From a virus, in the IMG/VR virus record IMGVR_UViG_3300028548_004680, positions 1 through 27,817 of that record: a DNA stretch of 27,817 bases. One strand, given 5' to 3'. This document shows positions 3,436-25,543 of the stretch, piece after piece (position 1 is the first letter of the stretch; each line of letters opens with the position of its first letter). The position numbers and the translations under genes were made by a program. The notes beneath the pieces are model-generated. The model saw nothing but the letters and a program-made list of their open reading frames with translations. It had not been told where the DNA came from and ran no database searches.

Positions 3436-3650
3436 AAAGGTTACAACAAAAGGTTACAACAACCTTATTTTTATCTGTCATCAAATCAAATTAAAATATT
3501 ATTTTATTTTACCAACAAAATAAAATAACCACTATATTGTTGTAACTTGTAACCTTTTATATATAAGTAGTTAATAAATATAATAAAAAGTAGGTTACAA
3601 CAAAGGTTACAACAAAGGTTACAATAAGCCTAAATTAGCTTGTTGTAACC
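3436..3650. repeat. Iteron cluster with AT-rich hairpin; candidate replication origin
   Basis: Eight copies of an AAAGGTTACAACA-like sequence lie in 215 bp: direct at 3436-3448 and 3449-3461 (13-bp period), inverted and partial at 3538-3546 and 3547-3558, direct at 3592-3602, 3603-3614 and 3615-3626 (12-bp period), and inverted at 3640-3650. The last copy lies inside the 3' end of the primase gene, where it encodes GYNK. Between the copy groups is an AT-rich stretch (3462-3537) with a perfect 12-bp A/T inverted repeat, 3499-3510 against 3517-3528 around ACCAAC. Iterons flanking an AT-rich unwinding element next to a primase/helicase gene is the usual plan of an iteron origin; a regulator-binding site array is the alternative. 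This also accounts for the 208-bp gap between genes. Confidence 0.65.
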
Positions 3651-5936
3651 AAATTCACTCCTTATTTCGTCATTAGTTAAAAAAGTTTTAGTCCAAACTC
3701 GACGAGCAGTACCATCAATCTTGACGACACCTTGTTGGCTGTAACCCATCTTTTTGAATAAATAATTAGCATCTCGATTACTAAGTGGACCAACATCAAG
3801 CTCAATTGCTTCTCTAAATTCAGAGCTTGAAAAGACTTTAACGGTCCACCATTTACCTCCATCAACTAACATTTGTTCGGCCTCATGCTGACCATCAGTC
3901 ATCGCTTTTTCTGTCTCAATTACTGAGCGCTTAGAGTTATTCATTGGAGCGACGCCGTCAAATCCAGCGGGAATATCTATACTTTCAAGCCAAGCTCTCA
4001 TAGCCCCACCGTCTCGAATTGCTTCAAATAGTTTAGTAAAATAACCATGACCCATCTTATGAGCTGTTGCAAATGACACCCACCATCTTCTGTCGTGATG
4101 ATTTTGAATAGGAACAGAGTCTCTAAAATTACTAAATACTAAATAGTTAGTCACATTGCGAACAACGTATGGCTTCAAGCCTTTATTGTTTATCTCAATG
4201 TCAGGGTCGGTAAACAATGGCTTAAGCGCATTGGCCACATCGAATCGGTTGTGACCTGTCAGCTTTAATTCCTGTAGAACGTTAACGGCTACACCTTCTG
4301 CCCAGCCGTTAAAGCTAGACTTAATAGTGTTGGGTGAAACTAGGCCAACATTCATGGCACCCATAGCTGACTTTAATAGCTCTCCAAAGAAAGACTTACC
4401 GATGCCTTCATCACCTACAAGCAAGGGGGACCATCTAACAAGTTCACCGCATCGCTGAACTTGCCACGCTAACCATTGCAGGAAGACAACAGAATCTGCC
4501 TTACCAATAAGCCCTATTAAATGGTCAGTTATTATTTGTTCTGCTACAGGGTCTCTTTTACCAGCAGCTGGAACTAAGTCAGCGCGGTAGGTATTTAAAC
4601 AGTCACCTACTATCCTATCGGCTTCTGTAGGTATGTACTCAAGCCTATTTAATATAGAAATAAATCCGCCATCAGCAACAGCTTGAGAGGCTGATTGTTT
4701 GGACCCGTTATCGCTGGCGGGTATTTGTATGCCACATTTAAGATTGAATGATGCAGCGCTGTAGCCCGTCATTGTGTTCAGATTTATGTACTGATTATGC
4801 GATAAGACGAACACCCAATGATTGCACCACTCAGGTCTAGCAGTAGCAGTCGTTAATGCGGAGGATGTAATCAACCGTCTAACATCAGCAATAGGGACTG
4901 GAACGCCGGTGAAACCTTTTAGCATGTTCTTCATGAGCGCGGCTAGTGTGTTCCTTTCTAGCGCATCAATGTTTGTTTCTTTTATCTCACCAGCCAATAC
5001 CATCACGGCTTGTTCGCTGTCACATTCGTCAAGCCGATCTCTAAAAGACGGAGCTTTCCAACCCGCTTCTTTGGCTAGGTATATAATGGTACCGACAGAT
5101 ACACGAACGCCATCCTTTTCAAATGAACGCCAACGCTTTCTTGTCTCTCCTTTCTTATAACTAACACCACCCTTGGACCACGCCTCCCAAATTTCTAACC
5201 CTTCATCTGCGTCCCAATCATAAAGACACATACCTATTTTTGCCCAATAGTCGTTGTCGGAGTTGTTATCGAGAACGCTCAGGTAAGACTCAAGTTGAAG
5301 ACGAGTAACCGCGTCGTATTGATTATCTATTAAACCGTCAAAATCTCCCAAGTCATCGTCGGTAACTACAGCCGCCGAGCTTCCGACCTCTACCCAAGTC
5401 GAAGGAACTTCTATTGCAGCCATCCATGCTTTAACTTTGTCAAAGTTTAGACTCTTTAACTCATGAGTCTCTAAGTCTTCCAATGACTCACCAGTCCAAA
5501 TGTAATCCTTGCCAGTGTCTGGATGCTTACCAAATGCGGCGAACTGTTGGCCCTTGCCTAGCAATTCAAAACCATGCACGACACCATCGGCATCGCGCCA
5601 CGAACGTTTTAGTTTAGTCTGACCTTCAACGCCTCTGTATACGAGTAGCTGCTTTGGAGCCTGACCGATGCGAACAGGAGCGCCGCCGAACTGTTCTATA
5701 AAAGATTTGACAACAACAGCCGAAACATCGGCGTCATAAAAGTCAAAGTCAGCGGCGTAAACAGAACCACAACGAACGCCAATGTTCATAGCACCTTTAC
5801 CGTTCAAGGACCACTTGCTTATTAAGTCTTCGGTTATCTCAATGTCTTGCCAATTAGAAACTACTGGTCGCTTACCATCTATAGGTATGACCTCAAATCC
5901 GTTATTAAATAAAGTAGAAGCTAATTGTTTGTACAT
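3630..5936 (-). CDS. Prim-pol primase / PriCT / SF3 helicase fusion
   Basis: A 768-residue replication protein with three parts. Residues 1-190 are a bifunctional primase-polymerase domain: DFDFYD at 63-68 supplies the metal-binding acids and FGKHP at 135-139 is the conserved His motif. Residues about 205-295 resemble PriCT (DNDYWAKIGMCLYDW, then a conserved W-x-S-F-E block). Residues about 500-660 are a DUF5906/SF3-type helicase: Walker A GDEGIGKS (508-515), Walker B VNVLQELKL with E556, sensor 1 NYLVFSNF (597-604) and the DRRWW arginine motif (615-619). It would prime and unwind DNA at the fork for the polymerase encoded at 7743. It is divergent from the DUF2800 gene. Its last codons overlap the iteron cluster. 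Confidence 0.93.
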   Translation of the reverse strand: MYKQLASTLFNNGFEVIPIDGKRPVVSNWQDIEITEDLISKWSLNGKGAMNIGVRCGSVYAADFDFYDADVSAVVVKSFIEQFGGAPVRIGQAPKQLLVYRGVEGQTKLKRSWRDADGVVHGFELLGKGQQFAAFGKHPDTGKDYIWTGESLEDLETHELKSLNFDKVKAWMAAIEVPSTWVEVGSSAAVVTDDDLGDFDGLIDNQYDAVTRLQLESYLSVLDNNSDNDYWAKIGMCLYDWDADEGLEIWEAWSKGGVSYKKGETRKRWRSFEKDGVRVSVGTIIYLAKEAGWKAPSFRDRLDECDSEQAVMVLAGEIKETNIDALERNTLAALMKNMLKGFTGVPVPIADVRRLITSSALTTATARPEWCNHWVFVLSHNQYINLNTMTGYSAASFNLKCGIQIPASDNGSKQSASQAVADGGFISILNRLEYIPTEADRIVGDCLNTYRADLVPAAGKRDPVAEQIITDHLIGLIGKADSVVFLQWLAWQVQRCGELVRWSPLLVGDEGIGKSFFGELLKSAMGAMNVGLVSPNTIKSSFNGWAEGVAVNVLQELKLTGHNRFDVANALKPLFTDPDIEINNKGLKPYVVRNVTNYLVFSNFRDSVPIQNHHDRRWWVSFATAHKMGHGYFTKLFEAIRDGGAMRAWLESIDIPAGFDGVAPMNNSKRSVIETEKAMTDGQHEAEQMLVDGGKWWTVKVFSSSEFREAIELDVGPLSNRDANYLFKKMGYSQQGVVKIDGTARRVWTKTFLTNDEIRSEFGYNKLI

Positions 5937-7742: not shown

Positions 7743-9479
7743 ATGCCTCTTGCCTTAGACACAGAATGTTACCCAAACTTCCATTTAATTTGCATCGCAG
7801 ATAAAGAATGGCATACATCAAACAAGTACACCAAGCAGCAGCGCACAGAAATACGTGACACAATGCGAAGTGCTACGACGTATGGCTTTAACTCTTTAAA
7901 TTATGACATGCCAATCATTCATGCTGCATTAAAAGGCAGCAGTGTGAAAGCGCTTTATAAAATGTCTAAAGATATCATTGATAATCAGCAGCCGCATTGG
8001 ATCACCTATCGTGAGCATAATATCGAACAGTTCAGCGGTTTCGATCACTTTGACATTAAAGAACCTGCACCCGCCGTTATGATTTCTTTGAAAATGTATG
8101 GCGCAAGAATGCACATGCCAAACCTTCAAGACTTGCCCTACGACCCTCATTTAGAATTAAGCGATGTTCAAAAAGAAGAAATAATTAAATATTGTTTCAA
8201 TGATATCGCAACAACTAAAGCCTTGTACTCAGCCATCAAGGGTCGCTCTAAACTTCGTAATCAATTAACAGATAAATACGGCCAAGATTTGAGGTCCAAG
8301 TCTGATGCTCAGATAGCAGAAGCTATTATAAAAAGTGAAGTTGGTAATGTTAAAAAAACAAAAGCGCCAGAGTTTGTTAAATATACATTCCCTAAATTTA
8401 TACGCAGAACTAAACTTACCGCCGAAGTATATGACTTCATAAGCGAGAGAAAGTTTGAGCTAAAGAAAGGCAAGATAACATTGCCAGATGACATGCCAAC
8501 AGTGACTATAGGAACGATGGTCTATAAGTTTGGTGTTGGAGGAATACACTCGACAGAAAGTAATCAAGAAGTTAAGCCAACAAAAAATCAAATATTAGCT
8601 GACCGAGATGTCGGGTCCTACTACCCTGCAATAATTTTAGAACTTGGCTTGTACCCAGAGGGTGTTGGCAAGAAGTTTTTAAAGACATATAAAAGTATTT
8701 TTGACCAGCGACTAGAAGCAAAAGAGAAAGCAAAAACTGGCGACAAACAAGCAGCGTTAATACGTGATGGTTATAAAATTGCGTTAAACGGCAGTTACGG
8801 TAAGTTTGGTAGCGAGTATAGTTTCTTGTACTCTCCACAACTTTTATTGCAGACAACAATCACTGGCCAGTTGGCTTTGCTGCAATTAATAGAAGCCCTT
8901 CATAAAGAAAACATTATCACTGTCTCAGCAAACACGGACGGTATCGTAAGTTTATTCGATAAAGATTTATATGAAAGTTACGATGGTATCTGCAAAAAGT
9001 GGGAAAAATTTACAGGGTTTACTTTAGAAGAAACTCAGTACAGAAGTTTACATTCAGCAAATGTTAATAATTATGTGGCCATAACACCCAATGGCGAAGT
9101 CAAAGGAAAAGGCGATTATGCACAACCTTCTTTGATGAAATCACCACGGTGTTCGATACTAGCTGAATCAGTAAAAGCATTTCTTTTGAACGGAACAAAG
9201 ATAAGCGAGACCATTAAAAACTGCACGGACCTCACAAAGTTTATAGCAGTTAGACAAGTAAAAGGTGGAGCAGTATGGAAAGGGCAAGCGCTGGGCAAAG
9301 TGGTGAGATGGTATTATTCAACCAATGGTGAAGCCATAAATTATTTATCGAACGGAAACAAAGTTGCTACGAGCGATGGAGCAACTCCGATAATGACATT
9401 GCCGAAAACATTACCGTCAGACATTGACTATGACTTGTATATTGCAAAGGCCAACAAAATGTTGGGTGAATTATGTTAG
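7743..9479 (+). CDS. Family-B DNA polymerase with 3'-5' exonuclease domain
   Basis: A 578-residue replicative polymerase. Exonuclease motifs: LDTE (D6, E8), NSLNYD (50-55), and Y150-CFN-D154. Polymerase motifs are of the B type: motif A DVGSYYP (289-295, Dx2SxYP), motif B KIALNGSYG (345-353, Kx3NxxYG), motif C NTDG with D399, and a KGKGDY thumb motif near 454. At under 600 residues it is short for the family. I see no terminal protein, so it is probably primed by the prim-pol protein. AAGGAG lies just upstream of the ATG, behind a strong terminator. Its 3' end overlaps the VRR-NUC start. Confidence 0.9.
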   Translation: MPLALDTECYPNFHLICIADKEWHTSNKYTKQQRTEIRDTMRSATTYGFNSLNYDMPIIHAALKGSSVKALYKMSKDIIDNQQPHWITYREHNIEQFSGFDHFDIKEPAPAVMISLKMYGARMHMPNLQDLPYDPHLELSDVQKEEIIKYCFNDIATTKALYSAIKGRSKLRNQLTDKYGQDLRSKSDAQIAEAIIKSEVGNVKKTKAPEFVKYTFPKFIRRTKLTAEVYDFISERKFELKKGKITLPDDMPTVTIGTMVYKFGVGGIHSTESNQEVKPTKNQILADRDVGSYYPAIILELGLYPEGVGKKFLKTYKSIFDQRLEAKEKAKTGDKQAALIRDGYKIALNGSYGKFGSEYSFLYSPQLLLQTTITGQLALLQLIEALHKENIITVSANTDGIVSLFDKDLYESYDGICKKWEKFTGFTLEETQYRSLHSANVNNYVAITPNGEVKGKGDYAQPSLMKSPRCSILAESVKAFLLNGTKISETIKNCTDLTKFIAVRQVKGGAVWKGQALGKVVRWYYSTNGEAINYLSNGNKVATSDGATPIMTLPKTLPSDIDYDLYIAKANKMLGELC

Positions 9480-14302: not shown

Positions 14303-16375
14303 TTATTGTTGTTCTGATGGCAACGCCATCATAAGTTTCGTGTTACCATCGCCTCCATATGATTGCTGATTAGCCCATCTTCTATCTATTTCGTCTAGTT
14401 TTTCTTTTATTGGGTCAACTGAAGTGTCGCCTCGGTTATCAACCGATGGCAGCAAAGCCGCAGCGTCTCCTCCAAATCGTTTTACTACCATTGATTGATC
14501 AGCAAGTTGTTTCGCCACAGTTGGCGCTCTTTGTTGCAACAAATTTACAACAGTAGCGATACCCTCTGGACCTTCGGTTAATTTCTTCGCCATCTTTTCT
14601 TGCACAATTGTGTTGAGTTTATTTGGTCCCGTGATTGAGTTCATAATAAGACGAACAATTGAGGAATAATTACCACTCTGAAGAAAACTAAGCGTATCTT
14701 CACTCGCTTGTGCCAGTTTACTTACCCCAATAGCATTCTCAACAGTATCAGAGCCTCTAAGTAGTCTACTAGTATAAGCAAAGACTTGGCTTTCAAGCTC
14801 TAAAGCACGAGTAAGAAGGTTAGATGTTGCTTTTTCAGGAAAAAGTGTTTCTAAGTTCTTTTTCGTTGTTCCGCTACCAATAAATTTTTGAGCAACATTT
14901 GAATTAGAAGAGGGATTACGAATTTTTTCCAGCATATTTTGCACAGCGCCAGTCCTATAACCATCTTGAGCGGCAAAGCTTAAAGTTTCAAGGTAGGCTT
15001 TAAGTTCCTGTGGTTGAACATTATTAAACGTTTTACGACCTTTGTCTAGAGCACTAGCAATTTCTGCATCATCTCCAAAAAACTGCCGCGCGTTTGCATA
15101 TACAGATTTTCCAGTATTTGGATCTATTGTCGCATTATCTGCAAGTTTTACCATCTCCCTAGATAAATCTCCTATTACCCTTTTTTCATTCGCTATTAAA
15201 GAACCATCCAACCGTGTCTCCTTTGACATAGCGTTTAAGGCTTTCTTCACCTCGTCTATAACTTCTATGCTGATTGGATCGGAAGGGTTATTTAAATTTG
15301 GAATCAGTGACGCAGTATCGCCCGCACCGCTAATTCGGGCAATATCTGCTTCTGCCCTTATAACTTTAGTACCTTTCATGAATGCTTCATTCATATAAGG
15401 GTTATCTTTTAAAGAATTCATTAGTGCAGGATTTATAATCGCAGGAAAATCCTTAGCCTGTTTATAAAGGGGTCCTGCAAGTTTCTTGCTTGCGTTAATA
15501 GCATCTTCAGCTTCAAAAAAGTCAGCATCTCCCAAATATTTTGTAATTTGATTTGCAACCCTCTCAGCTGGTGCACTATTTGCGTTTCTAGCTACGGCTT
15601 CTCCCATTATGGTGGGTACATCTCCTTGAGCTAACCTAGTGATAACTTTTGCTTGATTGGCAAGACCTACATTAGTATCTAGAAGTTTAAGAGGAACATC
15701 TAACTCTTTGGCTTCATTAGCAACTTTTTTAATATCATCAAACGCCTCTTTCGTTAGACCGGGAGGTAACGCGGATAAAAGTTGATCATCTGCCATTGCG
15801 TCAGTAATAGTTTCATCAAGAAGCTCTCCTGTTACCTCATCAATCGCCGACCCCCTTCTATTTCTAAAATAATCTTTAGCTACATTGAAACCTTTACCAA
15901 TGGCGACACCTGCGCCACCACCTACTATTCCGGGAAGAACACCTTCTTTAGCACCAGTCATTCTTTCACCTATGTCGGCACGCCCAGCCCCAGCCAAAGC
16001 ACCTTCCCCAGCAAAATAACCCAGCGCTGATTTTTTTGGGTTATTTATAATGTAGTTTTTAGCTTTGTTTAAAAGACTCGCGTTTCTTTGCGCAGAGGCC
16101 AATGCAAGGGGGCCTGACGCTCCACCTGTAAATAGTGTACTCGCGGCTAGTCCCAATGTGGGTAAAAAACTACCTATAATTTCGCCACTTAATGCTGCCC
16201 CTTTGTTTGCATTATAAAACCGATTGTACTCTTTATTAATAGTTGAGAGTTCTTCCTCATATGTTTCAGGCCCACTCAATGTTCTGATACGAGCTTCAAT
16301 TTCATCTCCCCAGCCCCTAGCAAGACCTTGCCCAAGAGTAGCTCTAGCTAGATTACCATAGTAATTATCAGCCAT
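14303..16375 (-). CDS. Large virion-internal / ejection-type protein
   Basis: A 690-residue protein. The N-terminal RATLGQGLARGWGDEIEARI and ETYEEEL segments match a type of phage virion protein common in short-tailed phages of Gram-negative hosts. A glycine-alanine-rich hydrophobic part (residues about 60-170, for example GIVGGGAGVAIGKG) could insert into membranes, as ejection proteins do. The rest is helical. I infer a role inside the capsid or in DNA ejection from size, composition and location; no enzymatic motif is visible. GGAG precedes the ATG, and start overlaps the upstream stop. Confidence 0.75.
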   Translation of the reverse strand: MADNYYGNLARATLGQGLARGWGDEIEARIRTLSGPETYEEELSTINKEYNRFYNANKGAALSGEIIGSFLPTLGLAASTLFTGGASGPLALASAQRNASLLNKAKNYIINNPKKSALGYFAGEGALAGAGRADIGERMTGAKEGVLPGIVGGGAGVAIGKGFNVAKDYFRNRRGSAIDEVTGELLDETITDAMADDQLLSALPPGLTKEAFDDIKKVANEAKELDVPLKLLDTNVGLANQAKVITRLAQGDVPTIMGEAVARNANSAPAERVANQITKYLGDADFFEAEDAINASKKLAGPLYKQAKDFPAIINPALMNSLKDNPYMNEAFMKGTKVIRAEADIARISGAGDTASLIPNLNNPSDPISIEVIDEVKKALNAMSKETRLDGSLIANEKRVIGDLSREMVKLADNATIDPNTGKSVYANARQFFGDDAEIASALDKGRKTFNNVQPQELKAYLETLSFAAQDGYRTGAVQNMLEKIRNPSSNSNVAQKFIGSGTTKKNLETLFPEKATSNLLTRALELESQVFAYTSRLLRGSDTVENAIGVSKLAQASEDTLSFLQSGNYSSIVRLIMNSITGPNKLNTIVQEKMAKKLTEGPEGIATVVNLLQQRAPTVAKQLADQSMVVKRFGGDAAALLPSVDNRGDTSVDPIKEKLDEIDRRWANQQSYGGDGNTKLMMALPSEQQ

Positions 16376-18285
16376 TATTTATCTCCTTTAGGTCTTCTTT
16401 CGTAGTAAGTACCATCTTGAACTTTTTTCATAATTGTATTTTGCGCTTTAACGCTGTAGTTAAGATCGTTTATTATTTGATTTATCATGTCATCCCTAGC
16501 CGTACCACTTAAGGCGTATAAACCTGTCAATTTCTCCAAGGCGTTCCTTTCTCCATCTGATATCTGACCTCCGAAGGTTGCTTTAAGTTTTTCAATAGCA
16601 CCTTGACTTAATATGTTATTTAGCCTTTCGGTAGCTACAACTTGAGGGTCATTTGGAGAAAGAAAAGCCAGACCCGCCATATTTATTCTGCCGCTAGGGG
16701 AAAAATTAAATGCTATTTTAGAAAGATCAAGCGCTTCTCGTAAGTTATCAATAGCTCTCAGTCCACGAGTACGCTTTTCATCAGCTACGTTAAATACTTT
16801 TTGCTCCGAAGTAGTTAAAGTGTTTGTTTTTCGTTCTAACGCATCAAGCTCAGCTTGCTGTTGTCTTAGCTCTAATTCTTGTAGATTCTGAATATAAGCA
16901 TCATACTCAGGGCTACCCGGCACAAGCCCAGCCTCTCGCGCAGCTACTGCTTTAACTGTTTGTCCTTCTTGATATTCTCTCTCTGCCTGAATGTTATTGA
17001 TATCGGTCAGGTTTTCTGATAAGTACCTAATTTCATCCTGCAAAGCCTTTCTTCTTTCTTTTTCCTGACCTGAAAACATATTAATATTTTGGTTTTTAAT
17101 AGATAACGCAAATTTACTCGCTGCGAGACCAAGCGCTCTAGATTCACTACCAGCCTCTCTTTCCTCTTTACTTACGTCAGCCATCGCTGCATTAGCGTTG
17201 CCTAAACTTTCAAAGAAGTTTCCGGTTTTAGTTGGTGCTCCCAAAGCCGCTGCAATTCTAAACCATTTTTCTGACTCAGAAGGGCCACCGCTTATAGCGT
17301 TTGCCTCAGCTCTCATTTGTGCTTCTATATCGTCGGAAGCAGCATTAGATTCTTGCCTTAACGCTTGCAGTTGTGCTGAGTCTTGAAATGACTGTGTATC
17401 CCTCAGTTCTTGCAGTTGTGCTTCTATATTATTGTATTGTCTACTTTGAGAAGAAAGAGGTCTTCTTACATTAGCTTGAGGTTGAGCTTGAGCTTGAGCT
17501 TGAGCTTGAGCTTGAGCTTCAGCTTCAGCTTCAATCTGTCTATTAGCAAGTGGGTCTGCCATCACACCCATGCCGGGTGTATTTGGCTCAGGATAAACAC
17601 CCGCAAGCGCCTCTTCACTTAAAAAATCCAAATCTAAAACATTTCTTAAATTATACGGACCACCTTCGGCGTAACCACCCTTTTTAAGAAACATTGGATG
17701 AACGCCCGGTCTTTCCGCAACAAACGGCTCAGGTGATGTCATATACTCTGGAGTTTGTAAAATTGTAGTGTTTGCATTATAAAGAGGAGTTTCACCAAGT
17801 TCTCTAGCAGAATTTCTAAAGTTAGTTAGTAAGTCTGCGTCCGAGACACCACTATCTCTTTGTCCTTGCCAATACGCCATCCCTTCAACATCGCCATCTC
17901 TACCCAAATTATTTTGATATAAGTCGGGTATAGAAAAAGAAGTATTATATTGAGGATCATTTAGTGATGTTTCATACCCAAATCCATTACCTCGTAAACG
18001 CCTATCATACTCGTCTGAGTATTTTTGATAAGCCGCTTGGTCTATAGGGACAGTTCTCATGTCCTCATTATACCTATCAAACAGAGCCGTTTCTTCGGCA
18101 ATACCTTTGTCGTAAGTAGCCTTGGCAGAATCGTAATATTTAGCCCCAACATTTGGAGCAACTAATTGAGACTCAGCAGGGTTAGTTGGTGCAGGACCAG
18201 TTGGCAGCTCGCCCCCAGCATATGCCACCTTTGAAGACGAATTTAATCCGAACCGTTCTTTTAATCTGTTTAATTCGTAACCCAT
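16375..18285 (-). CDS. Structural protein with DUF4214-like region and Gln-Ala repeat
   Basis: A 636-residue protein. Residues about 121-162 resemble DUF4214 (LYQNNLGRDGDVEGMAYW, then a LLTNFRNSA ending), a module seen in secreted and phage proteins. An EA/QA dipeptide run at residues 252-268 is encoded by a hexanucleotide repeat at 17482-17529. The second half is long and helical, with many Gln, Glu and Lys. The location between other large virion genes suggests an internal or tail-tip structural role. A GAGAGGG ribosome site precedes the ATG. No catalytic motif seen. Confidence 0.75.
   Translation of the reverse strand: MGYELNRLKERFGLNSSSKVAYAGGELPTGPAPTNPAESQLVAPNVGAKYYDSAKATYDKGIAEETALFDRYNEDMRTVPIDQAAYQKYSDEYDRRLRGNGFGYETSLNDPQYNTSFSIPDLYQNNLGRDGDVEGMAYWQGQRDSGVSDADLLTNFRNSARELGETPLYNANTTILQTPEYMTSPEPFVAERPGVHPMFLKKGGYAEGGPYNLRNVLDLDFLSEEALAGVYPEPNTPGMGVMADPLANRQIEAEAEAQAQAQAQAQAQPQANVRRPLSSQSRQYNNIEAQLQELRDTQSFQDSAQLQALRQESNAASDDIEAQMRAEANAISGGPSESEKWFRIAAALGAPTKTGNFFESLGNANAAMADVSKEEREAGSESRALGLAASKFALSIKNQNINMFSGQEKERRKALQDEIRYLSENLTDINNIQAEREYQEGQTVKAVAAREAGLVPGSPEYDAYIQNLQELELRQQQAELDALERKTNTLTTSEQKVFNVADEKRTRGLRAIDNLREALDLSKIAFNFSPSGRINMAGLAFLSPNDPQVVATERLNNILSQGAIEKLKATFGGQISDGERNALEKLTGLYALSGTARDDMINQIINDLNYSVKAQNTIMKKVQDGTYYERRPKGDK
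17482..17529. repeat. Hexanucleotide microsatellite in structural gene
   Basis: Six perfect TTGAGC units (17482-17517) followed by two TTCAGC units (17518-17529), read on the minus strand as Gln-Ala then Glu-Ala dipeptides. A unit is six bases, so slippage changes protein length without a frameshift. Confidence 0.9.
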
Positions 18286-21497: not shown

Positions 21498-21932
21498 CTA
21501 ACTCCTGTACCAATTATGTTTTTTAAATTCATCATTAAGGAACCCGTAGATGTGAACGTCTTCATCTTGATCGTACGCCTTTCTCATTGTACCCTCTTTT
21601 ACAAAACCTATCTGTTCAGCAAACTTTTGTGATAGAATATTTGTATCGGCTATTAGCCCTGTAGTCCTTGCTGCACCTAACTCTTCAAAAATCATCTTAA
21701 ACGCTCCGTTAAAGAGTTGCACGGAAATTTTAGGTGTAAATATGCAGTCTGCTGCGATATTTATATCAATATTTCTTTCAGTAAAATTTGTAAGCAAAAT
21801 AACACATGCAAAAGTGCCGTCATCGTGAACGGTTGATAATGCTCTAAACAGGCTCGGCGCACCTTTTGCCCCAAGATGTTTTCTAGCCCATTTTTCTGCT
21901 GCTTCTTCTTGTGTATAGCCGATATACCTCAT
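21498..21932 (-). CDS. GNAT-like acetyltransferase fold protein
   Basis: A 144-residue protein. The C-terminal half follows the GNAT pattern: N-x2-S-x-K-F-A-E-Q-I-G-F (around residues 97-109), KEGTMRKAY, and EDVHIYGFLNDEF. The N-terminal half, with the acetyl-CoA-binding region, is hard to match, so activity is uncertain. Similar proteins occur inside the virion-gene operons of short-tailed phages without an established role; they could modify a structural or host protein. ATGA overlap with the upstream gene, and its stop (21498) precedes the preferred start of the next gene by 3 bases. Confidence 0.75.
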   Translation of the reverse strand: MRYIGYTQEEAAEKWARKHLGAKGAPSLFRALSTVHDDGTFACVILLTNFTERNIDINIAADCIFTPKISVQLFNGAFKMIFEELGAARTTGLIADTNILSQKFAEQIGFVKEGTMRKAYDQDEDVHIYGFLNDEFKKHNWYRS

Positions 21933-22168
21933 AGCGTAGTTTGCACAAATCTTTCAGCCCACTCTTGCCACTGTGTAACATCGTAGCTATATGGGTCTGG
22001 AAAATCTTCTATTAATCTACTAGCTTTATTGTATTGATTGGCCCAATCTTGCCATTTATCAGGGTCATCTAAAGGAGAATAAGCCCCAAATGCACAAAAA
22101 TCAGTGATTAAACAATCAGCCCAATCTTGAAGCTCTATTCCAACGGGTAATGTTACGCTTAGGCTCAT
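21929..22168 (-). CDS. Small Trp-rich phage protein
   Basis: A 79-residue protein with two WQxWA repeats (DKWQDWANQYN near residue 38 and TQWQEWAERFVQ near residue 66), plus ELQDWAD near residue 12. This Trp-Ala repeat style and an internal DPYSYD-x2-QW link are familiar from small proteins that sit next to the gp10-like tail gene in marine phages. The function is unknown; a scaffold or tail-assembly helper is possible. Start overlaps the stop of the large tail gene as ATGA. Confidence 0.65.
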   Translation of the reverse strand: MSLSVTLPVGIELQDWADCLITDFCAFGAYSPLDDPDKWQDWANQYNKASRLIEDFPDPYSYDVTQWQEWAERFVQTTL

Positions 22169-24351
22169 CCTAAGTCCGTTCCATCGCCACTATCAAAGTG
22201 AGCAATAATTTGTCCCATTTGATAATCTCCATAAAGAGAGTTTGATTCAAATTTAACTCGTAATTCTCTGCGTTGTTCTTTGAGCATTACAATTTGTTCA
22301 TATGGTTCTGTTGCAGATTCTGGAAATGTAAATGTAGTGCTAACTACTTCTGGTGCTCTAGCATTAGCACGGCCAGTAACATTGACAGTCATTGGACCGC
22401 TTTGTACAAAATCAGGTTCAATTGTTGTGCAACGTAAATAACGATTAGTTCCACTAACAAGAGTAGAAAGGTCAGACGTTTCAAAAAATGATTTGATAGG
22501 TCTTACTGTTGGTCCATCGTACTCATCAACTTTAAATTCATGTCTCCACGCTTTATAGCCCGAACCTCTTGCATTAGTATTAACTTGGCCTCCCATTCCA
22601 CTATGTACGGAACAGTAGTAATAAAGCGTAGGCGCTCCAGTTCCAACAAGAATCTGCGTATAAGCTCCAGCACTTCCGGGAGTCCCAACAATGGTAACTC
22701 CAGATGTGTAAGCCACACCCCCACCATGCGTGCCATCTGAGGTTGTTGAAAGGCGTAAAGGATGACCAGAATTGTTTCCTGCTGACTGGTCAAAACGATA
22801 TGTGTTTCCTTCAACAAAAGTTAAGGTTGGTTGTGCGCCACCGTTCATGTTGTATTTGTTACCAGAACCAGCATTAACAACGGTAACAGCAATAGTTTCT
22901 ACAGCATTTAATGGTAAAGGAGAAGGCTGAACGCCTGTTAAAATAGGCGCTGCAAAAGAGTTAGTAAAGTGACCAGCAGAACGACCATTATTAGGAAGCT
23001 CAGTATCATACCAAGTCTTTTCTTTTACGTTGTAAACAACAGCGTGAGTACATTCAGTTGCATCGCCTTTAGGGTAACACCACCAAACCTCATTGTGTTT
23101 TGGTACTTGAAAACCAAAAGTTTTGTTTTTAGCATCTTGATTTATATTATCATAGAAGTAATTCAAATTCATGCTATTAGGCACTTCTCTAACTACACCG
23201 TTAAACATGTAGAAAGTATCTACGCCAGCCCAATAAAATATACCGTCGTAATCAACAACACAAAACTGAGAAAGAATTGAAGTACCCGTTGCAATTATGT
23301 CAAACTGAAAAACTGTTGCCCCACCAGTAAAAGTAGCACGGATAACAGCATCGAATGCCCAAAACAGTCCTGCTGGAGCTGTTCCAGAACCCGCCCTCAT
23401 TGGTAAACCTTTGATTATTTTTTGACCCCAAACCCTAGCTAAACCAGAGCCAGAACCAGTTAAATCTGTAGGTTGTCCAGCAACTGACCAGCCAATAACT
23501 CCGTCTGTACCATAATAAAAAAGATAAGGGTGAAGACTAACAATACCGCCTGTTGCATTTGCATTAGGTGGTAGCGATATACTTCTAAGGTCAGCTGTCC
23601 CCAACACTTCGCCAAAGAATATTTGACCATCTTTGTCATTGCAGACACAAGTGCCATTTGGAGAAACGGCAGCCAAAAGGTAATTTTGATTGGTTGAAGA
23701 GTCGTATTGAACATCGAACATCCAAAAGTTATTAACATTATCTATTAAAGCGTCAGAGCCGTAATTAAGATTGACAATAGTAGATGTTAAAGTAGTTAAA
23801 GTATTGGTTATAACAAAACCGTTAGTCTGGTCGCCTGTTGTAACTGAAGTAATAGTAATTACAGCTCCAACTGCTACGGCAGAGTAGTTTGGAGTAGAGC
23901 TAAAAGCTGATATATTTGAGGCAACATCAGTAGCTGTCTGGTTTATAGTACTATTAAAAGCAACAGCCCCAGACATAATATCAACGCCCTTGATAGCAAT
24001 CATACTAACTGCCCCAGAACTTCCAGCTAATGTTACAGTACCATAAGAACCGATTGCCGTAGGTGTTCTGTCATCTATAACCGAACTGTTTCCTGAAGCA
24101 TCAAGCGTAAATCTTTCTAGAGTAGTTGGTCCACCAGAATGACAATAAACAAAGTTCTGTTGAGTAAATGTAGAAAATCCTCTACTTATTTCCTGTAAAA
24201 ACTTTTGAGTTGTTTTGTACCCACCCATTTTACGAGGCAAACCACGTTGCCAACGAACCCATTGTCCATCGGTATAGCTTTCACCTTCAAACTTAGTCCC
24301 ATCCCGTTTAATTCCGGGACTAGATTTTAGTACCGCAGTTTGAATGGGCAT
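22165..24351 (-). CDS. P22 gp10-like stabilisation protein with cupredoxin-like insert
   Basis: The frame opens at 24381, but ATG 24351 starts MPIQTAVLKSSPG, which matches the usual N-terminus of this family, and has GGAGGA at 24362-24367. That gives 728 residues. KRDGTKFEGESYTDGQWVRW near residue 20 is the signature of phage DNA-stabilisation/head-tail closure proteins. Two domains are inserted: residues about 102-197 (SMIAIKGVDI...ITITS, a beta-domain seen in other phage virion proteins) and about 484-592 (22576-22902), a cupredoxin-like fold with G-H-P-L-R (H530) and YYYCSVHSGMGG (C580, H583, M586) as likely copper ligands. Located just after the adaptor and a fibre gene. Confidence 0.82.
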   Translation of the reverse strand: MPIQTAVLKSSPGIKRDGTKFEGESYTDGQWVRWQRGLPRKMGGYKTTQKFLQEISRGFSTFTQQNFVYCHSGGPTTLERFTLDASGNSSVIDDRTPTAIGSYGTVTLAGSSGAVSMIAIKGVDIMSGAVAFNSTINQTATDVASNISAFSSTPNYSAVAVGAVITITSVTTGDQTNGFVITNTLTTLTSTIVNLNYGSDALIDNVNNFWMFDVQYDSSTNQNYLLAAVSPNGTCVCNDKDGQIFFGEVLGTADLRSISLPPNANATGGIVSLHPYLFYYGTDGVIGWSVAGQPTDLTGSGSGLARVWGQKIIKGLPMRAGSGTAPAGLFWAFDAVIRATFTGGATVFQFDIIATGTSILSQFCVVDYDGIFYWAGVDTFYMFNGVVREVPNSMNLNYFYDNINQDAKNKTFGFQVPKHNEVWWCYPKGDATECTHAVVYNVKEKTWYDTELPNNGRSAGHFTNSFAAPILTGVQPSPLPLNAVETIAVTVVNAGSGNKYNMNGGAQPTLTFVEGNTYRFDQSAGNNSGHPLRLSTTSDGTHGGGVAYTSGVTIVGTPGSAGAYTQILVGTGAPTLYYYCSVHSGMGGQVNTNARGSGYKAWRHEFKVDEYDGPTVRPIKSFFETSDLSTLVSGTNRYLRCTTIEPDFVQSGPMTVNVTGRANARAPEVVSTTFTFPESATEPYEQIVMLKEQRRELRVKFESNSLYGDYQMGQIIAHFDSGDGTDLG

Positions 24352-24352
24352 A

Positions 24353-25543
24353 TTAGTAAGTTCCTCCATCGGCAGGGCCAATAGCAGTCCAAGCAGCTCT
24401 TTTATTAGCAGCTACAAATACAGCTATACCTGTTGTGGTTCCGCCTAAATTTATTAACGCTTGTCCCGCTGATGTTGCCCCTGTACCACCATTAGAAATA
24501 GCTATAGGAACACCAATACTTGCTGTGTCAGCGTCTAATAGTTCACTACCATCACAATAAAAAATACCTCTTTCATTTGTAGCAATGATAACGCCAGTAG
24601 TACCTGACACTTTGACAGTTAGAGTATAACTGCCTGTTGTGCGATTGTCGATCCAGTATTGCTGAACCGTTGCGGGAATAATTATAGTCCTCGCACCAGT
24701 TAAAGAACCAGTAAAACGGTAAGCTACTCTATTTAATTGAGCGCCTGATAAAGTAAAGTTACCAGAACCGGGAACATCAATAACAGTATAGTCAAAAGCA
24801 AAAGTAGAAGACTGACCAAAACCAATTGTAAAAAAGTTAGTTCCATCAGAAGCTACAATAGCTGATTCACCCGGTTGAAAAGCTAACGGGTTAACGCCAT
24901 CAATTTTTGTAGACCCCGGTGTTACAACCGAAATTTGACCAGAGCCAGAATTACGAAGGTATATAAACCAGTTATCACCAACGCCAGTTGCTGTTGGGTC
25001 AGGTAGTGTAATTACACCGCCAGCGCCCGTCCAATTAAACATTTTAGCTCTATCAGAATTACCAGAAGTATAATTAGAACTAAATGTAGTAACAGGCACT
25101 GATTGGGAAAGTAAAGTTCCAACAGCAACAATTCCTGTTCCAGCTAAAGCTGATGCATTTGCGCTTGAAGTTGTTGCTCCGTATTGCAAAAGCTGCCAAA
25201 CACCGTTTGTACTAGTATTATTAGTTAAATAAACTTGCCATAGCTGACCCGCTGCAATTGTTCCAACTTGAACGCCACCAGCGTTTTTAACTGTAAAAGT
25301 ATTACTTCCTTTATTGTTAAAAAGTATAGTATTACCTGTGCCACTTTTCTTAGCGTCTGGGAGTATGATACTAAACGTGGCCGCCGCAGCAGTTACGTCC
25401 ATTATGCGAGTAGCTAAATTGATGTTTGTTGATGTTTCTTCGGGCCAACTTAAAGTTATATCAGCAGTTAAACTAACTGAGCTATAGCTTATCTCACTTG
25501 GGTATATATTTGCTCCACCAAATACATCTGTATAACTAGGCAT
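24353..25543 (-). CDS. Tail fibre/appendage protein
   Basis: A 396-residue beta-rich protein with repeated Gly/Thr/Ser strands and a C-terminal SNGGTGATSAGQALINLGG segment, a motif typical of phage tail-fibre repeats. The ending (VFVAANKRAAWTAIG) is likewise fibre-like. It probably forms a trimeric appendage used for host contact. TAATG overlap with the adaptor stop and GGAGTGA ribosome site support the start. The gene ends 1 base before the preferred start of the gp10-like gene. Confidence 0.8.
   Translation of the reverse strand: MPSYTDVFGGANIYPSEISYSSVSLTADITLSWPEETSTNINLATRIMDVTAAAATFSIILPDAKKSGTGNTILFNNKGSNTFTVKNAGGVQVGTIAAGQLWQVYLTNNTSTNGVWQLLQYGATTSSANASALAGTGIVAVGTLLSQSVPVTTFSSNYTSGNSDRAKMFNWTGAGGVITLPDPTATGVGDNWFIYLRNSGSGQISVVTPGSTKIDGVNPLAFQPGESAIVASDGTNFFTIGFGQSSTFAFDYTVIDVPGSGNFTLSGAQLNRVAYRFTGSLTGARTIIIPATVQQYWIDNRTTGSYTLTVKVSGTTGVIIATNERGIFYCDGSELLDADTASIGVPIAISNGGTGATSAGQALINLGGTTTGIAVFVAANKRAAWTAIGPADGGTY

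Follow-up and report, generated by a model that had tools for sequence, protein, structure and literature searches.

A predicted type-1 copper cupredoxin domain inserted in a podovirus tail nozzle protein and carried by other exterior proteins of marine phages

Type-1 copper sites are familiar from soluble electron carriers and enzyme domains. An initial annotation of a viral DNA record placed such a site inside a phage tail protein described as gp10-like, which raises the question of whether a type-1 copper domain is indeed built into a virion protein, and what it might do there. Here, we analyzed the entire record of 27,817 bases (hereafter the window), which is classed as linear by IMG/VR and is therefore possibly a fragment. 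The cupredoxin-like domain (~110 residues) is encoded on the minus strand at positions 22576-22902, within a gene at 22165-24351 that starts with ATG at 24351; its open frame reaches further upstream to a TTG at 24381 (22165-24381, 738 codons). Counted from the ATG, the domain comprises residues 484-592 (494-602 from the TTG) and the candidate ligands are His530 (22762-22764; H540 in the 738-residue numbering), Cys580 (22612-22614; C590), His583 (22603-22605; H593) and Met586 (22594-22596; M596), all exactly as annotated, and the YYYCSVHSGMGG context around the Cys-His-Met motif is present as described. The ATG (MPIQTAV...) adjoins the terminus of the preceding gene (24353-25543, minus strand), which encodes a tail fibre-like protein (PHROG 12796); Caulobacter phage GB2A has this same arrangement. 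The homologues L001-L004 start at the equivalent position. The motif C-x2-H-x2-M was found once across all six frames of the window. Elsewhere, the replication part of the window encodes a Prim-Pol/PriCT/DUF5906 primase-helicase (3630-5936, minus strand) and contains a weak match to family B DNA polymerases (7743-9479, plus strand).

Structure prediction had been proposed as a check of the annotation, and it returned a cupredoxin fold rather than a different one. The AlphaFold2 model of the domain, built with 108 homologues, had a mean pLDDT of 97.4 and a pTM of 0.89 and contained nine strands and one short helix. Foldseek searches of the PDB gave 1756 matches at E <= 10; the ten at E <= 0.001 were eight rusticyanins and two copper nitrite reductases, all of them type-1 copper proteins. 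When VIA-align was run on 998 of the top 1000 Foldseek chains, the N-terminal cupredoxin domain of the Hyphomicrobium nitrite reductase (2dv6; Z 10.1, rmsd 2.4, 97 aligned residues) came first and rusticyanin (2cal; Z 9.0, 105 aligned residues) second, with laccases next. In BFVD, 67 matches were obtained at E <= 0.001, with marine phage structural proteins on top, and the weaker matches included two giant-virus 'beta-sandwich' proteins. The model thus predicts a Greek-key beta-sandwich of the cupredoxin type. Rusticyanin and the cupredoxin domain of NirK, in which two His, one Cys and one Met form the ligand set, share this predicted fold with the phage domain over 97-105 residues at 14-22% identity; they function in periplasmic electron transfer or as parts of enzymes, whereas the phage domain is an insert of ~110 residues in a structural protein. 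Sequence methods alone stayed below significance for a link to known cupredoxins: phmmer matched no solved structure, the best hits of a profile search of PDB sequences (plastocyanins, E 0.07) were interleaved with antibody heavy chains and unusable alone, and hhalign aligned the first His, the Cys and the second His with those of three PetE proteins from cyanophages, but at a probability of only 4%.

The conservation of the candidate ligands was examined in two samples. In an alignment of 108 diverse viral domains (107 of 112 representatives plus the window), only H48, Y96, C98, H101 and M104 were invariant, namely the ligands and a Tyr that precedes the Cys by two residues. Five representatives had been set aside ahead of this count (L257, L182, L277, L172 and L214); all except L214 hold C-x2-H-x2-M. 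Because these rows had come largely through patterns that include the Cys loop, a second sample was drawn with a search pattern that lies upstream of every ligand and is hence independent of them; the 80 stretches listed, out of at least 120, yielded 82 matches (two of them cut off) and 79 distinct domains. Among the matches listed, the first His was accompanied by C-x2-H-x2-M in 61 of the 79 domains, by C-x2-H-x3-M in five and by C-x2-H-x2-Q in two (L396 and L408), the latter with an axial Gln as in stellacyanin. The Cys-His loop was absent in the other 11, which implies that copper is not needed everywhere in the family. The first His was retained by all 68 domains that have the Cys-His loop but by just 4 of the 11 that lack it (Fisher p 1.1e-7, only a guide since the sampled sequences are related), so that seven of the 11 loop-less domains had lost this residue as well. 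All four ligands were also kept in each of the 20 domain-bearing nozzle proteins found among the best 80 of 185 relatives plus the window. Joint retention or loss of residues ~50 positions apart, with Gln as the sole axial alternative, is what a type-1 copper site predicts, and, judged from sequence, the putative ligand set His...Cys-x-x-His-x(n)-Met/Gln of such a site is complete in the window domain, in agreement with the initial annotation.

These data bear on two alternatives. One is that the motif is coincidental and forms no metal site, for which only the general weakness of short motifs could be cited; the fold model, the Foldseek matches, the invariance in 108 rows and the co-variation in the ligand-independent sample all speak against it, and this candidate was rejected as hardly credible. 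The other is that in the virion the site is occupied by a different metal (Zn or Fe) or stays empty. Phage particles are assembled in the cytoplasm, which contains very little free copper, and this favours the alternative; however, a set of two His, Cys and Met whose axial position varies only to Gln is the signature of type-1 copper, and the fold matches are copper proteins, and we regard the alternative as improbable. From sequence and model together, it is likely that the domain binds copper. One ion per domain would be bound with high affinity, and loading would probably take place after release into seawater or on the host surface, because the cytoplasm in which the phage is assembled is copper-poor.

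The loop that carries three of the ligands distinguishes the domain from curated cupredoxin families. As annotated, the Cys-to-Met spacing is shorter than the C-x2-H-x4-M of plastocyanin (PetE), with which the phage domain has the fold class and ligand types in common. C-x2-H-x2-M is the ligand loop of amicyanin, and the window loop thus has amicyanin's length, seven residues from Cys to Met. Seven residues are also given for a ligand loop as long as amicyanin's in the available part of one report (PMC7480511). The phage domain lacks a Pro before the second His, and the amicyanin model TIGR02657 did not match the window domain (one of the 108 members matched, at E 0.13); membership of the amicyanin family as defined by this model was rejected. 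More generally, no cupredoxin model in Pfam, NCBIfam or PROSITE passed for the window protein or domain. For 22 of the 108 members, Copper-bind (PF00127) gave a match at E <= 1, the best of them at E 0.0088. The PROSITE pattern PS00196, in the form printed in an accessible portion of PMC517927, was found in none of the 108 virion domains versus two of three PetE proteins, and the phage loop lacks the Pro/Gly that the pattern demands. The plastocyanin family (TIGR02656, PF00127, PS00196) was therefore rejected, as there was no curated match and the spacing is not C-x2-H-x4-M. Five of the 108 members matched PF25489 (At5g54830-like) at E <= 1 (best 1e-5); the window domain was not among the five, and none of 20 re-scanned members matched.

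Two further identities were considered. A true plastocyanin was encoded by a separate gene in three of the four cyanophage records tested, and since both proteins coexist there, the view of the virion domain as a diverted PetE was rejected. Identity with the viral NirK of oxygen-minimum zones was also rejected, as that protein is described as a whole NirK enzyme in the part of the report consulted (PMC8115048). Another possibility is that the domain is a redox device, which would transfer electrons or remove superoxide or nitric oxide on the virion, either for protection or for triggering ejection. Such a device fits the nearest folds, namely that of the electron carrier rusticyanin and that of the cupredoxin domain tethered in nitrite reductase, and also the natural Met-to-Gln swaps at the axial position, which according to the accessible text of PMC4059628 tunes the potential in known cupredoxins. 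On the other hand, no redox partner was recognised within the window, and the separate plastocyanin genes of cyanophages that need an electron carrier (three of four records) make electron carriage for the host unlikely. We consider a redox device very improbable.

What the carrier protein does in the virion could be narrowed down by homology. PHROG 3287 (virion structural protein) spans residues 35-480, while PHROGs 30742 and 693 (tail fibre) and 27200 (unknown function) match the cupredoxin-like domain only. With a profile of 31 relatives, hits were obtained to the Pseudomonas phage Pa223 C6 tail protein (9nwi_Y, E 3.7e-17) and to gp16, the nozzle of Vibrio phage VP1 (8zkk and 8zkm, E 5e-11), and the close relative L018 as a single query also matched solved nozzle proteins (E 6e-14). 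The full-length AlphaFold2 model was poor (pLDDT 45) and was used only for the well-modelled first insert described below and for the nozzle matches of VIA-align, which comprised the portal-tail complex of P-SCSP1u and the T7 nozzle gp12. The gene order (virion protein, fibre, nozzle, small protein, tape-measure-like protein) is similar in Caulobacter phage GB2A, whose nozzle homologue has ~510 residues, lacks both inserts of the window protein and matches around, not over, the cupredoxin-like domain. The small protein between the nozzle and tape-measure-like genes (21498-21932, minus strand, 144 residues) resembles a GNAT acetyltransferase by eye, which would be unusual in a tail module. Given the homology to solved nozzles and the gene order of GB2A, the annotated term gp10-like can be refined to the nozzle of a short-tailed phage (podovirus), a protein of the same type as T7 gp12, P22 gp10, VP1 gp16 and the Pa223 protein. 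Unlike the window protein, the matched nozzle structures showed no cupredoxin insert. By analogy with 9nwi, a C6 tail with six chains, the nozzle would form a hexamer at the tail end.

The nozzle protein contains two exchangeable modules. The first insert (23752-24060, minus strand; residues 100-202 of the model) matched residues 146-247 of the T7 nozzle gp12 and residues 91-202 of the sheath of phage Milano, and also resembled flagellin in the VIA-align run of the full-length model; it is missing in L015-L017. The cupredoxin-like domain is the second. Among the best 80 of 185 nozzle relatives, its site was filled by the domain in 19, empty (few residues) in 53 and occupied by another domain in eight (20, 53 and eight when the window was included). 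By eye, the domain in these eight (L023, L025, L029-L033 and L035) looks homologous to the first insert of the window protein. The closest backbone is that of L018 (94% identity across 483 columns), whose site is empty: 369 nt in the window (22561-22929, minus strand) correspond to 15 nt in L018, and blastn between the two genes gave flanks of 85.7% and 88.9% identity with a break at gene positions 1452/1822. Similarly, L038 is empty (21 nt) and both L006 (364 nt) and L007 are filled, with 91-97% identity of the DNA flanking the site. In a tree of the backbone (67 distinct rows of 81, after duplicates and fragments shorter than 400 residues, such as L039 and L069, were dropped), the filled state needs seven changes, at least five of them forced by well-supported branches, and a single clade of filled nozzles was rejected (p-AU 1e-54). 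The domain is a clean insert of ~370 nt that has been gained or lost at least five times among nozzle genes.

The domain is not restricted to nozzles. The initial annotation had mentioned YYCSxHSGMGG-like sequences in other marine phages, and by tblastn we found matches at 484 places in 272 of 50,697 phage records, compared with none of 72,556 plasmids. The matched records are named for Synechococcus, Prochlorococcus, Pelagibacter and Methylophilales phages, cyanophages and marine viruses, with two names that could not be placed. The domain lies near the C-terminus of two pelagiphage tail fibres and at the extreme C-terminal end of a baseplate wedge-fibre connector of a cyanophage; further carriers include a structural protein of S-TIM5, baseplate families, minor tail families and small proteins of marine phages. 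Ligand-less versions sit in phrog_693 and head-closure proteins: in the Hc2 head-closure family (L382, L388 and L431; PHROG assigned on L382), the domain is near the C-terminus, and L382 and L388 lack the ligands. The 258 complete and distinct carrier frames, cellular carriers included, formed 58 flank clusters. ORF231 of S-SCSM1, labelled as a virion protein, has intact ligands (THPF...CTNHGNM), and 45 virion proteins of this phage were found by mass spectrometry according to the part of the report available (PMC9602691). Gp130 of S-CREM2, which contains a ligand-less relative of the domain, was detected in virions with 24 peptides, as stated in a portion of PMC10665884. The domain probably belongs to a family of marine virion-surface modules passed among nozzle, fibre, baseplate and other exterior proteins.

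This distribution could be taken to suggest a copper Trojan horse, in which metallated domains are recognised by, or exploit, copper-handling or uptake proteins in the host outer membrane. The matched records come from phages of picocyanobacteria, SAR11 and Methylophilales or from marine samples, the domain is close to the C-terminus in two pelagiphage fibres and the cyanophage connector, and the Ferrojan Horse hypothesis proposes an equivalent mechanism with iron for HxH motifs, as set out in the accessible text of PMC11705849. Iron-binding HxH fibres (T4 gp37; Alteromonas phage R22Y) and this hypothesis have the notion of a tail-borne metal in the ocean in common with the phage cupredoxin domain, yet metal, fold and site all differ. 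No receptor candidate was found in our analysis, nor any link between the presence of the domain and host copper genes, and we view such a mechanism as quite unlikely.

Relatives of the domain were also present in cells. A scan of 84,980 species genomes yielded 106 stretches, 102 of them related, and 80 cellular stretches were kept. Among these, 27 loci (30 domains) encode exported bacterial or archaeal proteins with a lipobox or signal region, and many of the remaining stretches look phage-borne. As this search used the Cys loop, only the first His of the cellular copies is an unbiased observation. Judging by record titles, the carriers belong almost exclusively to marine lineages. They include lipoproteins of SAR86, K189A, OM182 and Woeseiaceae, several of which also have cadherin-like domains; collagen-repeat proteins of marine Euryarchaeota, of which L315 and L339 are lipoprotein-like with repeats followed by the domain (Pfam on L315); and proteins that combine a signal peptide with two or three domains, such as the tandem proteins L351 and L355 of Cellvibrionales, the former with a C-terminal membrane anchor. 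In a tree of 83 domains, a single clade of cellular copies was not rejected (p-AU 0.13), and 33 of 80 inner branches were open. In L356, a bacterial locus, the domain is linked to a region resembling, by eye, the DUF4214 stretch of the window, which scored above cut-off at 17806-17931 (minus strand) inside a 636-residue frame (16375-18285).

Several of these observations feed the main rival to a host-contact role, namely that the domain is a structural beta-sandwich decoration comparable to the Ig-like domains of other phages, in which copper or hydrogen-bonded ligands merely stabilise the fold and have no function of their own. Relatives without ligands persist (11 of 79 sampled places, among the matches listed), related cellular domains adjoin cadherin and collagen repeats, and among the best 80 of 185 nozzles the slot holds an unrelated module in eight and nothing in 53, which indicates that it accepts any small domain. 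However, if copper were dispensable, four distant residues should drift more, whereas in 108 rows nothing but the ligands and one Tyr is invariant, and the ligands are retained or lost jointly. Pure stabilisation is therefore rather unlikely in our opinion.

Fold, ligand conservation and co-variation, insertion and deletion history and virion context are all established here by computation. The cupredoxin reading of the initial annotation is supported, although the amicyanin spacing, the exchangeable insert and the bacterial-surface relatives had escaped it. With moderate confidence, we favour the view that an intact type-1 copper cupredoxin has been inserted in an exchangeable slot of a podovirus nozzle protein and is predicted to be a copper-loaded, swappable module for host-facing attachment or decoration. 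Since the nozzle would be hexameric, six domains would be displayed around the tail, and six copies with outward exposure appear likely. The domain could then act as a rigid host-facing module that is swapped as hosts change; we judge a function in host contact, as opposed to mere stabilisation, about as likely as not. The filled and empty nozzle pairs (L006 and L007 versus L038) offer a natural experiment on the role of the module.

The literature searched, which comprised few subscription journals, contained no account of a copper or cupredoxin domain in phage virion proteins, nor of a mobile type-1 module there, although the fold and the type of site are themselves familiar. A fold can now be assigned to a domain filed by PHROGs merely as 'tail fiber protein' or 'unknown'. 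A predicted type-1 site is built into exterior proteins of viruses that infect very abundant ocean microbes, with cassette-like exchange. As a speculative and rather doubtful extension, marine virions might be copper metalloproteins whose tail modules load copper from seawater or the cell envelope, dock on host copper-handling proteins and are swapped to change hosts, together forming a redox-active copper pool. The occurrence of the module on exterior components of many ocean phages suggests that virus particles may carry copper centres, and if copper is bound, virions would be a copper-containing colloid.
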